Positions 31,471 to 50,220 of a stretch of DNA of 64,000 bases are shown in pieces. A program made the position numbers and the translations under genes. The stretch comes from Verrucomicrobiota bacterium (lineage in GTDB: Bacteria; Verrucomicrobiota; Kiritimatiellia; CAIQIC01; JAGNIJ01). Each line of letters opens with the position of its first letter. The stretch's first letter is position 1. The notes under the pieces are model-generated. The model was not told where the DNA came from and did no database searches. It saw only the letters and a list, made by a program, of their open reading frames with translations. The DNA is taken from NCBI GenBank assembly GCA_022710725.1, contig JAKLGK010000004.1, positions 310,001 to 374,000 on the forward strand, in the 5' to 3' direction.

Positions 31471-31479
31471 GAAGTTGAA

Positions 31480-31622
31480 CCACAGAGGACACAGAGGGAT
31501 TTTATTCAACCATAGGGAAACGGGGATTATCATGTTTCCTATCATTGGAAAAATGGCGGTGACTTTTTCCACACATTGGAAAATTCCCGGCTTTCCTCTG
31601 CGTTCCTCTGTGCCCTCTGTGG
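31480..31622. repeat. Inverted-repeat element enclosing a palindrome pair, guaA-carB spacer
   Basis: The left arm CCACAGAGGACACAGAGG (31480-31497) is complementary, with one mismatch, to the right arm CCTCTGTGCCCTCTGTGG (31605-31622). The arms belong to the 'CACAGAGG' class of intergenic repeats seen in many genomes. Between them lie two TTCCAA-N3-TTGGAA-like palindromes, so the block looks like a composite, possibly mobile, intergenic element of about 143 bases. The right arm ends 12 bases before the carB ATG. Confidence 0.7.
31536..31581. promoter_or_regulatory. Two phased TTCC/GGAA palindromes upstream of carB
   Basis: Copy 1 (31536-31550) is TTCCTATCATTGGAA and copy 2 (31567-31581) is TTCCACACATTGGAA. 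Their starts are 31 bases apart, and the interval begins AAA and ends TTT. Both are imperfect in the left half relative to the 49.2 kb copies. The spacing matches the other two clusters. Confidence 0.7.
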
Positions 31623-31634
31623 TGGATAATTGAA

Positions 31635-40248: not shown

Positions 40249-40901
40249 CGGCCCGGTCCCGCCAGGGCCCGGGCCAGGTCGGGCGACAGGGGGAAGAACC
40301 AGCGGCCCCGCCGGTACACGGCGCGCGCCTCGTCCGCGCGGCCCTCGCCCTCCAGCACGCGGCCCCAGTCCAGCGCCTGCTTCGCCGCCAACGGCCAACG
40401 GGCCCGCCGGGCCATGACATCCTTCACCGCGTCCACGGCCTCGGGCGGGGCGCAGACGCGCAGCAGTTCGTGGACGACCTGGTAGTCCGGGTACCGTCGG
40501 TGCAGCTCCCACAGCGCCGGCCAGAGACGCGGGAACTCGTTGACGCAGGCCAGGCTGTACAGTTCGTACACGAGCTGGTCGGCCGCGACCTGTCGGCGCC
40601 AGAACGGCAGGCGCTGCAGTCCGACCGCCCGGTGCAGGCCGTAGAACACCACCTCCGACAGCCAGTGATGGTTGATGAACGGGTAGTCCGGCCATGTGTA
40701 CGTCAGCAGGTTGGTATCCGGCACGCTCCCCCGATCGAGGATGAGCCGGCCCAACAGGAGATGCCGCCCCAGATCCTCCATGAAGCCGATGCCCGGCGTG
40801 AAGGCCAGGAGGAACACGAGCAGCAGGATCGGGAGCCACGCGAGGGCGTTTCCAAACATTGGAAAAAAGCATCGCACATTTTTCCAAACATTGGAAAACA
40901 T
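40245..40901 (-). CDS. Short membrane protein, probable internally deleted glycosyltransferase-like remnant
   Basis: 218 residues if read from 40901, or 204 from the in-frame ATG at 40859. The first residues (MFSNVWKN...FFPMFGN) are simply the translation of the two palindromes, so 40859 or a later site is the likelier start. A signal-like helix (WLPILLLVFLLAF) is followed by DLGRHLLLGRLILDRGSVPDTN and YPFINHHWLSEVVFYGLHRAVGL, the usual N-terminal block of 500-600-residue polytopic glycosyltransferases. The sequence then jumps to a soluble TPR-like C-terminal part (EGRADEARAVYRRGRWFFP). The middle membrane helices are missing. It could be a pseudogene formed by in-frame deletion. Confidence 0.6.
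   Translation of the reverse strand: MFSNVWKNVRCFFPMFGNALAWLPILLLVFLLAFTPGIGFMEDLGRHLLLGRLILDRGSVPDTNLLTYTWPDYPFINHHWLSEVVFYGLHRAVGLQRLPFWRRQVAADQLVYELYSLACVNEFPRLWPALWELHRRYPDYQVVHELLRVCAPPEAVDAVKDVMARRARWPLAAKQALDWGRVLEGEGRADEARAVYRRGRWFFPLSPDLARALAGPGR
40849..40898. repeat. Two phased TTCCAAACATTGGAA palindromes at 40.9 kb
   Basis: Cores TTCCAAACATTGGAA at 40850-40864 and 40882-40896, 32 bases start to start. The 17-base interval begins AAA and ends TTT. The flanking T and A runs extend each palindrome to 17-19 bases. They overlap the 5' end of the glycosyltransferase-like gene and follow the CPBP gene stop. Confidence 0.9.
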
Positions 40902-47374: not shown

Positions 47375-49093
47375 ATGCTCGCATTACTCTTCCTGGCCTG
47401 TTGCGCCGCGCTGGCGGCCGGCTATTTCATCTACGGGCGGTTCATGGAGCGGAACCTGGACGTCCGGGCCGACCGTGTCGCCCCGTCGGTCACGTTGCAG
47501 GACGGGGTGGACTATGTTCCGACGAAGACGGCCGTGCTCTTCGGCCATCACTTCAGTTCCATCGCCGGCGCCGGCCCGATCGTCGGGCCCATCATCGCCG
47601 GTCTCGCCTTCGGCTGGTTCCCCGCGCTGCTCTGGATCCTGGTCGGTTCCATTTTCATCGGGGGCGTGCACGACTTTACCGCGCTCATCGCCAGCCTGCG
47701 CCACCGGGCGCGTTCGATCGGCGAAATGTGCCGCGACCTGCTCAATCCCGCGGCCTACTACGTGTTCCTGATCTTCATCTGGCTGACGCTGATGTACGTC
47801 CAGATCGTCTTCATGGACCTCACGGCGTCCACGTTCGTGCCGGTGACGCAGCCGGAGACGGCCGACCTCCAGCTGCACCAGGGCGGTGTCGTGGCCACGG
47901 CCTCCATGCTCTACATCGGCCTCGCCGTGCTCTTCGGGCTTTCGCTCTACCGGTTCAACGTGCCGGTGGGCAAGGCCACGCTGATCTTCGTGCCGCTGGT
48001 GTTTCTGGCCCTCTGGGTCAGCCACCTGCTGCCACTCCGGGCGGACCGGATTCCGGAGGCGCTGCTCCTGGGCAACGCCAAGAACACGTGGCTGGCGGTG
48101 CTCATCGTCTACTGCTTCCTCGCCTCGATCCTGCCCGTGTGGATCCTTCTCCAGCCGCGCGACTACCTTTCCTCCTTCCTCCTGTACGCCTGCGTCGGCG
48201 GCGGGGTCGTCGGCCTGCTGACGTCCGCGGCGCAGGGCACGGTCGCGATACGGTACAATCCCTTCTCGGGCTGGACCCATCCCGAGTTGAAGGGGATGTT
48301 CCCCGCCCTCTTCATCACCATCGCCTGCGGCGCGGTCAGCGGGTTCCATTCCATCGTCGCGTCCGGGACCACGTCCAAGCAGCTCTCGAACGAGAAGTCC
48401 GCGCGCACGGTGGCCTACGGGGGCATGCTGGTCGAGGCCGTCCTCGGCCTGGTGGCCCTGGCGACGGTCATGGTCCTGGCCGACAAGCCCGCGGGCAAGA
48501 CGCCGGTGGCCATCTTCGCGGGCGGGCTGGGCGATTTCCTGGCCGCGCTGCATATCCCCCGCCAGGCGGCCGTCACGTTCGGGCTGATGGCGGTCAGTTC
48601 GTTCCTGCTGACGACGCTGGACACCTGCACGCGGCTGGCCCGGTTCATCTTCGAGGAGATCTTCGGCTTGAGCGGGCGCCTGGCCCGCTACGCCGGGACG
48701 GCGGCCAGCCTGCTGCTGCCCGCGCTCGTGGTCTTCCGCCAGATCCCGGGGCCCGGCGGGAAGCTCATGCCCGCGTGGCAGGCGGTATGGCCGGCCTTCG
48801 GGGCCACCAACCAGCTCCTCGCGGCGCTCGCGCTGCTGGTGGTGTACGCGTGGCTGCGTCGCAGCGGCAAGCGCAGCGGGTACGTCCTGCTGCCCATGCT
48901 GTTCATGTGCGTCACGACGGTCACGGCTCTCACGCAACTCGCCATCCTGAACCTCTTCCACAAGGGCAGCTTGCTCGTCGGCGCGATCTGCCTGGTGCTG
49001 GACCTGCTGGCCGTCGCGCTGATCATAAGCACCGCCTGGAACCTCCTGCGCCGCCGGCCCGCCCCCGTCGGGTTCACGCCGGCTCCGAATTGA
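47375..49093 (+). CDS. cstA: Carbon starvation CstA family transporter
   Basis: 572 residues, about 16 hydrophobic segments. CstA proteins import pyruvate or peptides. Family blocks: YVPTKTAVLFGHHFSSIAGAGPIVGP, GGVHDFTALIASLRHRARSIGEM, LLQPRDYLSSFLLY, CGAVSGFHSIVASGTTSKQL and WPAFGATNQLLAALALL. GHHFSSIAGAGPI is diagnostic. A GGTGGGAG site upstream supports the ATG at 47375. It is the shorter form (like YjiY/BtsT-related proteins without the long C-terminus). Followed by the triple palindrome array. Confidence 0.94.
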   Translation: MLALLFLACCAALAAGYFIYGRFMERNLDVRADRVAPSVTLQDGVDYVPTKTAVLFGHHFSSIAGAGPIVGPIIAGLAFGWFPALLWILVGSIFIGGVHDFTALIASLRHRARSIGEMCRDLLNPAAYYVFLIFIWLTLMYVQIVFMDLTASTFVPVTQPETADLQLHQGGVVATASMLYIGLAVLFGLSLYRFNVPVGKATLIFVPLVFLALWVSHLLPLRADRIPEALLLGNAKNTWLAVLIVYCFLASILPVWILLQPRDYLSSFLLYACVGGGVVGLLTSAAQGTVAIRYNPFSGWTHPELKGMFPALFITIACGAVSGFHSIVASGTTSKQLSNEKSARTVAYGGMLVEAVLGLVALATVMVLADKPAGKTPVAIFAGGLGDFLAALHIPRQAAVTFGLMAVSSFLLTTLDTCTRLARFIFEEIFGLSGRLARYAGTAASLLLPALVVFRQIPGPGGKLMPAWQAVWPAFGATNQLLAALALLVVYAWLRRSGKRSGYVLLPMLFMCVTTVTALTQLAILNLFHKGSLLVGAICLVLDLLAVALIISTAWNLLRRRPAPVGFTPAPN

Positions 49094-49146: not shown

Positions 49147-49224
49147 TTCCAAACATTGGAAAAATCGGCCCATGGTTTTTCCAAACATTGGAAAAAACCG
49201 CGGCTTTTTTTCCAAACATTGGAA
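49147..49224. repeat. Array of three phased TTCCAAACATTGGAA palindromes upstream of kdsD
   Basis: Identical cores TTCCAAACATTGGAA at 49147-49161, 49179-49193 and 49210-49224; starts 32 and 31 bases apart. Intervals of 17 and 16 bases begin AAA and end TTT and are otherwise GC-rich and unrelated. The last copy ends 18 bases before the kdsD TTG start. The pattern is repeat-spacer, but much shorter than CRISPR. Confidence 0.95.
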
Positions 49225-49242
49225 AAAGCGGAAGGAGAGCGT

Positions 49243-50220
49243 TTGTTGAATATCATCCAACGCGCCCGCGAGGTCCTGGATACCGAGAGCGCCGCCCTGG
49301 CCAAGGTCCGCGACGGGCTGGGCCCGGCCTTCGAGCAGGCCGTCCGATGCCTGCTGGACCGGCTCGGTCGCGGCGGCAAGATCGTCGTTACCGGCGTGGG
49401 CAAGAACCAGCCGATCGGCCAGAAGATCGCCGCGACGCTCACGAGCACCGGGGCGCCGTCCCTCTTCCTGCATCCCTCCGACGCCATGCACGGGGACCTG
49501 GGCCTGCTGCAGGCGAACGACGCCCTGGTCGTCTTGAGCTATAGCGGCGCCTCCGAGGAACTGCTGGCCCTGCTGCCCGCCGTCAAGCGCACCGGCATGC
49601 CGGCCATCGCGCTGACCGGCGACCCGGAAAGCGCCCTGTCCAAGCTGTGCGACATCGTCGTGCCGGTCCAGGTGGACCGCGAAGCCTGCCCGTTCAACAT
49701 GGCGCCCACGGCCAGCACGACCGCCACGCTCGCCGTCGGCGACGCCCTGGCCATGGTCCTCCTCGAGGCCCGCGGCTTCCAGCTGGAGGACTACGCCAAG
49801 CTCCACCCCGGCGGCGCCATCGGGCGCACGCTGCTGATGCGCGTGGAGGACATCATGCGGACCGGCGAGCGCGTGGCGAAGGTCCGGCCCGACACCCGCG
49901 TGCAGGACGCCGTGCTGGCGATGACCGCCGCCCGCTCCGGCTCGGCCGTGGTGGTGGACGACCGCGACGCGGTGGTCGGCATCTGCACCGACGGCGACCT
50001 GCGGCGGCATATCGTCGACAACTCCCGCAACGTGGCGTCGCTGAACATGGCGGACGTGATGACCCGCGAGCCGATACGGCTGACCCGCGGGCACCTGGCC
50101 GTGGATGTGCTGGCCATCTTCGAGCAGCACAACATCGACGATCTCATCATCGTGGACGAGGGCGGGCGCCTGATGGGCATGATCGACATCCAGGACCTGC
50201 CCAAGTTCAAGATCTTCTGA
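49243..50220 (+). CDS. kdsD: Arabinose-5-phosphate isomerase (KdsD/KpsF/GutQ family)
   Basis: 325 residues from a TTG start at 49243 (AAGGAGAG seven bases upstream; the next TTG at 49246 is an alternative). An SIS sugar-isomerase domain (about 1-200: VVTGVGKNQPIGQKIAATLTSTGAPSLFLHPSDAMHGDLG, LSYSGASEEL, MAPTASTTATLAVGDALA) is followed by two CBS domains (about 205-325). It makes arabinose 5-phosphate for Kdo of lipopolysaccharide, so the cell has an LPS outer membrane. The conserved GKSG motif reads GKNQ here, a mild deviation. Confidence 0.93.
   Translation: MLNIIQRAREVLDTESAALAKVRDGLGPAFEQAVRCLLDRLGRGGKIVVTGVGKNQPIGQKIAATLTSTGAPSLFLHPSDAMHGDLGLLQANDALVVLSYSGASEELLALLPAVKRTGMPAIALTGDPESALSKLCDIVVPVQVDREACPFNMAPTASTTATLAVGDALAMVLLEARGFQLEDYAKLHPGGAIGRTLLMRVEDIMRTGERVAKVRPDTRVQDAVLAMTAARSGSAVVVDDRDAVVGICTDGDLRRHIVDNSRNVASLNMADVMTREPIRLTRGHLAVDVLAIFEQHNIDDLIIVDEGGRLMGMIDIQDLPKFKIF

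Follow-up and report, generated by a model that had tools for sequence, protein, structure and literature searches.

Upstream of a kdsD-type gene in the window (the whole stretch of 64,000 nucleotides that was analysed), three identical palindromes form one of many arrays that are helically phased, conserved at orthologous places, spread clade-wide with variants of the motif, independent of gene starts and strand-neutral at their centres. The palindromes are probably cooperative sites of a putative dimeric protein that oligomerises along a single side of the helix and whose role would be architectural instead of gene-specific; the binding of a protein, its dimeric and cooperative nature and its architectural role are what we infer from the arrays. 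No description of such phased palindrome arrays was found in the literature searched.

The kdsD array and its copies in the window and genome

The exact 15-base core TTCCAAACATTGGAA occurs at 49147..49161, 49179..49193 and 49210..49224 (no strand), with steps of 32 and 31 bp, in agreement with the original prediction. The intervals, AAATCGGCCCATGGTTT (49162..49178, 17 bp, no strand) and AAAACCGCGGCTTTTT (49194..49209, 16 bp, no strand), are unrelated except for their A/T ends, as had been claimed, and these ends are part of an extended consensus, TTTCCA-N5-TGGAAA. The array begins 53 bp past the stop of a cstA-type carbon starvation gene (47375..49093, plus strand), and its last core lies 18 bases ahead of the start codon of a kdsD-type arabinose-5-phosphate isomerase gene on the same strand (49243..50220), a distance that was confirmed. 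The assignment of this downstream gene was also borne out, as its product carries the SIS plus two CBS domains expected for KdsD. Its apparent start is a TTG, either at 49243 or at 49246, preceded by a ribosome-binding-like GGAAGGAG (49230..49237, plus strand) that was read directly between the array and the gene.

With up to two mismatches allowed, 10 core matches were found in the window (0.62 expected), a number reached by none of 100 shuffles. A second array (40850..40896, no strand) consists of two exact sites starting at 40850 and 40882, 32 bp apart; it is flanked by two minus-strand genes and overlaps the called start of one of them by about 10 bp. A third, slightly degenerate array (31536..31581, no strand) occupies the guaA-carB gap, 53 bp before carB, with two sites starting at 31536 and 31567, 31 bp apart and with one mismatch each. 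This carB-upstream array sits inside a 19-nt inverted repeat, ACCACAGAGGACACAGAGG (window 31479-31623, 107 nt between the arms), that seems to be a distinct element of MITE type. The genome scan proposed originally returned 69 exact TTCCAA-N3-TTGGAA sites in the genome itself (3.89 Mb, 14 contigs) and none for the reversed control.

Helical phasing and conservation of the arrays

When the neighbour distances of several genomes were combined, 323 of 324 lay at most 1.5 bp off a 10.5-bp multiple. The resultant was maximal (R 0.94) at a period of 10.50 bp with zero phase offset. This pooled value is dominated by the 31/32 class, and some of the distances above 40 may be made up of several shorter steps; outside the 30-33 class, 28 of 29 distances were still in phase. 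Steps of 31/32 predominated and 21/22 were also seen, the observed classes being 21/22, 31/32, 41/42, 53 and 63/64. Three sets were gathered without any condition on spacing, namely the own genome, the sister species G001 and one G004 contig of 83 kb; in these, neighbours were 30-32 bp apart, except for three at 62 or 63 (a double step). The 115 public loci, which came from a pair search allowing start-to-start distances of 21-51 bp, gave distances of 21/22, 30-33, 41, 42 and 44, and longer ones of 53, 63/64, 75 and 94 (and 284). The sharp genome-wide peak at 31/32 bp anticipated by the original prediction was thus present, with nearly all distances on the 10.5-bp period. Within arrays, the alternation of 31 and 32 did not go beyond independence (p 0.27), and therefore a rigid cumulative register is not supported. 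Paired sites were also seen in 13 IMG/VR viral contig stretches (L131-L143), at spacings of 28, 31, 36, 42 and 45 that are more mixed than those of the bacterial loci.

Fourteen syntenic arrays are common to the genome and G001 (about 75% protein identity), a count that is biased because the G001 regions were chosen for holding arrays. At these places, the palindromes were kept, the intervals had mostly diverged, and the number of units shifted in 31/32-bp steps. The complete contig C9 provided a less biased check: a site stood at the same place for four of the six sister arrays with an orthologue there, against a chance of about 1% each (p about 2e-7). No true empty site was found on C9, and the two apparent losses were places with a different gene order. 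Sites therefore persist in relatives while intervals diverge, which, together with the 10.5-bp period, supports the suggestion that the sites and their helical phasing are both under selection, as would be the case with a cooperative oligomer or a protein of nucleoid type. The other suggestion, a short repeat-spacer element, found no support, given the helical period, the unconserved intervals and the shifts of array size in 31/32-bp steps. A CRISPR-like array was also rejected on its repeat structure: such arrays have longer repeats and spacers of near-constant length, whereas here 15-17 bp palindromes stand on a 10.5-bp distance ladder.

Upstream of kdsD, arrays were found in two families, with three sites in G000, two in G001, two in G002 and four in G004 (spacing 31, 31 and 32 in the last three genomes, respectively). 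Site 3 of the kdsD array is absent at that place in G001. One weak site stands upstream of kdsD in G007, and no array was found there in G005, G009, G011, G013, G015 or the sampled f4 genomes. Another array lies inside trpF, at the same loop in three families (f1, f2 and f3); it is decayed in G009 and G013 and, in the TrpF alignment, absent from G002 and outgroup sequences. At the array loop, these array-less TrpF proteins lack from several to about 18 residues.

Intervals of the own genome and of G001 were on average hardly more similar than random, those of the public loci more so, and some adjacent intervals were near-identical. The unit number changing in 31/32-bp steps and the near-identical neighbouring intervals indicate that arrays likely grow by tandem duplication, followed by interval drift with the palindromes retained.

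Gene context, motif variants and taxonomic range

Based on gene calls from a self-trained gene caller written for this analysis, arrays of at least two sites in all sets examined were located in tandem gaps (106), convergent gaps (31), divergent gaps (34) and genes (35). Relative to the available intergenic room, convergent gaps held more arrays than expected (31 against 17.5) and divergent gaps slightly fewer (34 against 43.2; p 0.002). In tandem gaps, the median distance from the array was 28 bp to the stop of the upstream gene and 41 bp to the next start. The genes downstream of arrays have mixed functions, with no regulator family among the commonest families, and no recurrent regulator gene was found adjoining the arrays in their neighbourhoods. 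Neither the proposed link of a regulatory array to gene starts nor the link to an LPS gene gained support from these results, since arrays occupy tandem, convergent, divergent and in-frame intragenic positions, and the genes that follow them are functionally mixed.

In-frame arrays were found within genes for TrpF, a nucleotidyltransferase, an OppB-like permease and a UvrD/AddA-like helicase (L210:9921-9997, L212:10230-10276, L211:10014-10153 and own contig C9:385936-386012, respectively), TrpF and the helicase being named from a reading of the sequence. As neither 31 nor 32 is divisible by three, successive units of one array can be read in different frames. These arrays encode peptides of the FSNDWK, FPMIGK and FQTLEK types, through which protein searches match unrelated arrays of other genomes; annotators should be warned of the false similarity between unrelated proteins that results. 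On the coding strand, neither G nor C was favoured as the centre base (137:148 for tandem gaps and 44:42 inside genes). As the centres have no strand bias relative to transcription, recognition probably takes place at the DNA level, not the RNA level.

All 28 genomes sampled from the order contained the general motif TTTCCA-N5-TGGAAA, at 7-1363 copies. Across 289 genomes of the phylum, high copy numbers were confined to the same class, where they were unevenly distributed, and genomes of other classes stayed at background (0-5). Genomes without TTCCAA-N3-TTGGAA carry TTTCCAC...GTGGAAA, phased at 22 and 31 bp. Within genus g27 of family f17 alone (G069, G084, G115, G149, G182, G247 and G266), copies of the general motif ranged from 4 to 592, which offers a natural contrast for tracing the binder. 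FR_21, a relative on few large contigs, had only 8 sites of the extended form. Additionally, the array centres are genome-specific: AACAT/ATCAT in the own genus, AGCCT in G004, and variable, often C...G-flanked centres in f4. That the centres follow each genome's own preference even at the orthologous trpF place fits a trans-acting reader.

Public array-bearing records were mostly labelled as Kiritimatiellae, Kiritimatiellales, Lentisphaerae or Verrucomicrobia MAGs, labels that make Kiritimatiellia the probable class. Two public contigs with arrays at 22 or 44 bp (L037 and L043) bear the label Prevotellaceae MAG RUG11506, possibly as a result of mis-binning or mislabelling.

Proposed reading and its alternatives

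The phasing with the helix, the symmetry of the arm changes and the centres, which are neutral to strand and particular to each genome, together point to a symmetric protein with lateral contacts on double-stranded DNA. The kdsD palindromes would be one of many arrays in the genome read by a single putative dimeric protein, with one dimer on each palindrome of the general form. Adjacent dimers, two or three helical turns apart on the same DNA face, would touch each other, and two to five of them would make a short nucleoprotein patch of about 50-150 bp, able to bend or wrap the DNA. Because arrays occupy every gap type and also lie within intact genes, they probably have a mainly architectural or chromosome-wide, nucleoid-associated role rather than one in controlling only kdsD; transcription may also be affected locally. 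Several observations count against this explanation: none of the Lrp/AsnC proteins, ParB-type proteins and Y1 transposases tracks the arrays, part of the array growth is plain tandem duplication, copy number varies strongly among close relatives, and REP elements share the slight 3'-end and convergent bias.

Strong copy-number variation among close relatives also fits a multiplying repeat. REP- or RPE-like palindromic repeats, multiplied by a transposase or by copying, mainly intergenic, sometimes in frame in genes and without a host function, are a possible though rather unlikely source of the arrays. Such repeats would account for the high and very variable copy number, for the tandem duplication in some arrays and for the mainly intergenic distribution, whose slight 3'-end and convergent bias is also seen in REP elements. 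They would likewise accommodate the copies in frame within intact genes, a presence also known for Rickettsia palindromic elements, and the extra residues of the trpF loop relative to array-less TrpF. Against them stand the strict 10.5-bp phasing with two alternative steps and palindromes that stay exact over family-level distances while their intervals diverge. Moreover, GTAG or CGTC tags were not above background within 14 bp of the sites, and the Y1_Tnp count was unrelated to the site count (rho 0.05; genome-level counts in 38 genomes). The arrays resemble REP/BIME and Rickettsia palindromic elements as short palindromes of high, variable copy number, mainly intergenic with some in genes (PMC3733652), but differ in lacking the GTAG/CGTC tag and, at the level of genome counts, any transposase association, and in being strictly helical and long conserved at orthologous sites with diverged intervals.

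The best mechanistic analogue is provided by Lrp-type proteins. The Sulfolobus protein Ss-LrpB recognises a 15-bp palindrome, TTGCAAAATTTGCAA, binds cooperatively at three sites within its own control region, wrapping the DNA, and has intragenic sites (PMC4046817); centre spacings of two or three helical turns are described for sites of the Lrp family (PMC2995911). The arrays follow the same spacing rule, at 21/22 and 31/32 bp, and share the 15-bp palindrome, the multiple sites and the intragenic copies (PMC2995911, PMC4046817); possible wrapping would involve about 100 bp over three sites. It is nevertheless unlikely that the binder is the resident Lrp/AsnC-type protein, acting as an octamer that wraps DNA at two- or three-turn spacing as Ss-LrpB does. 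Such a protein is encoded in 37 of 38 genomes, but array-free genomes have it equally, its count is uncorrelated with array copy number, and in G037, which is free of arrays, its DNA-binding region is similar to the one in the own genome. In five proteins compared, no position switched with the TTCCAA/TTCCAC variants. The arrays also differ from Lrp/AsnC sites in half-site sequence, in a centre that is nearly always G or C, and in their number, dozens to 1363 per genome. The resident Lrp as binder is not specifically supported.

Other dispersed palindromes were considered. Noc, SlmA and MatP sites serve nucleoid occlusion or terminus organisation, do not need gene starts and are present in genes, and Noc sites have TTTCC/GGAAA ends; the arrays share the dispersal, the independence of gene starts, the presence in genes and, with Noc sites, these ends. 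To our knowledge, Noc, SlmA and MatP sites have not been described as phased arrays. A Noc/ParB-type system was not supported: most genomes, with or without arrays, had one strong ParB_N match, and no extra ParB-family protein was present to track the arrays. NrdR boxes are paired palindromes about three turns apart that are known only from ribonucleotide reductase promoters; the arrays have a similar spacing but are not confined to those promoters.

Cooperative phased operators are well known, and a transcription factor acting cooperatively from start-proximal sites could repress or activate kdsD and other genes. The 18 bp to the kdsD start and the retention upstream of kdsD in four genomes agree with an operator array, but we consider it improbable in view of the convergent enrichment and slight divergent depletion, the intragenic copies, the mixed downstream functions with no common regulator family, and the position of tandem-gap arrays nearer to the upstream stop than to the next start. 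An RNA-level element, with the palindromes transcribed as hairpins (terminators or stabilisers), is very improbable: the kdsD leader transcript gives a better fold than shuffled sequences (z -3.5), as any palindrome would, but the array has no terminator-like site (a GC-rich stem followed by a T run), the asymmetry of the centres shows no preference for either direction of transcription, a 10.5-bp period would mean nothing for an RNA, and no Rfam family reached its gathering score.

Short repeated palindromes are usually read as promoter operators or selfish repeats, whereas here they are helically phased, stand at the same places across families and are kept in genes such as trpF, where they add residues when translated. 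Their spread over genes and gaps in a group of uncultured bacteria, from dozens to more than 1000 copies, points to a putative DNA-binding protein assembling on one face of the chromosome. Tentatively, the arrays may belong to a previously undescribed chromosome-organising system of one class, probably Kiritimatiellia, in which a dimeric protein of a kind unrelated to any known nucleoid protein would act on phased arrays maintained chromosome-wide, even inside coding sequences, while the recognition word drifts between genera by co-evolution of protein and sites. They would then provide a natural system for DNA-phased cooperative assembly and for the co-evolution of a binding word and its reader.
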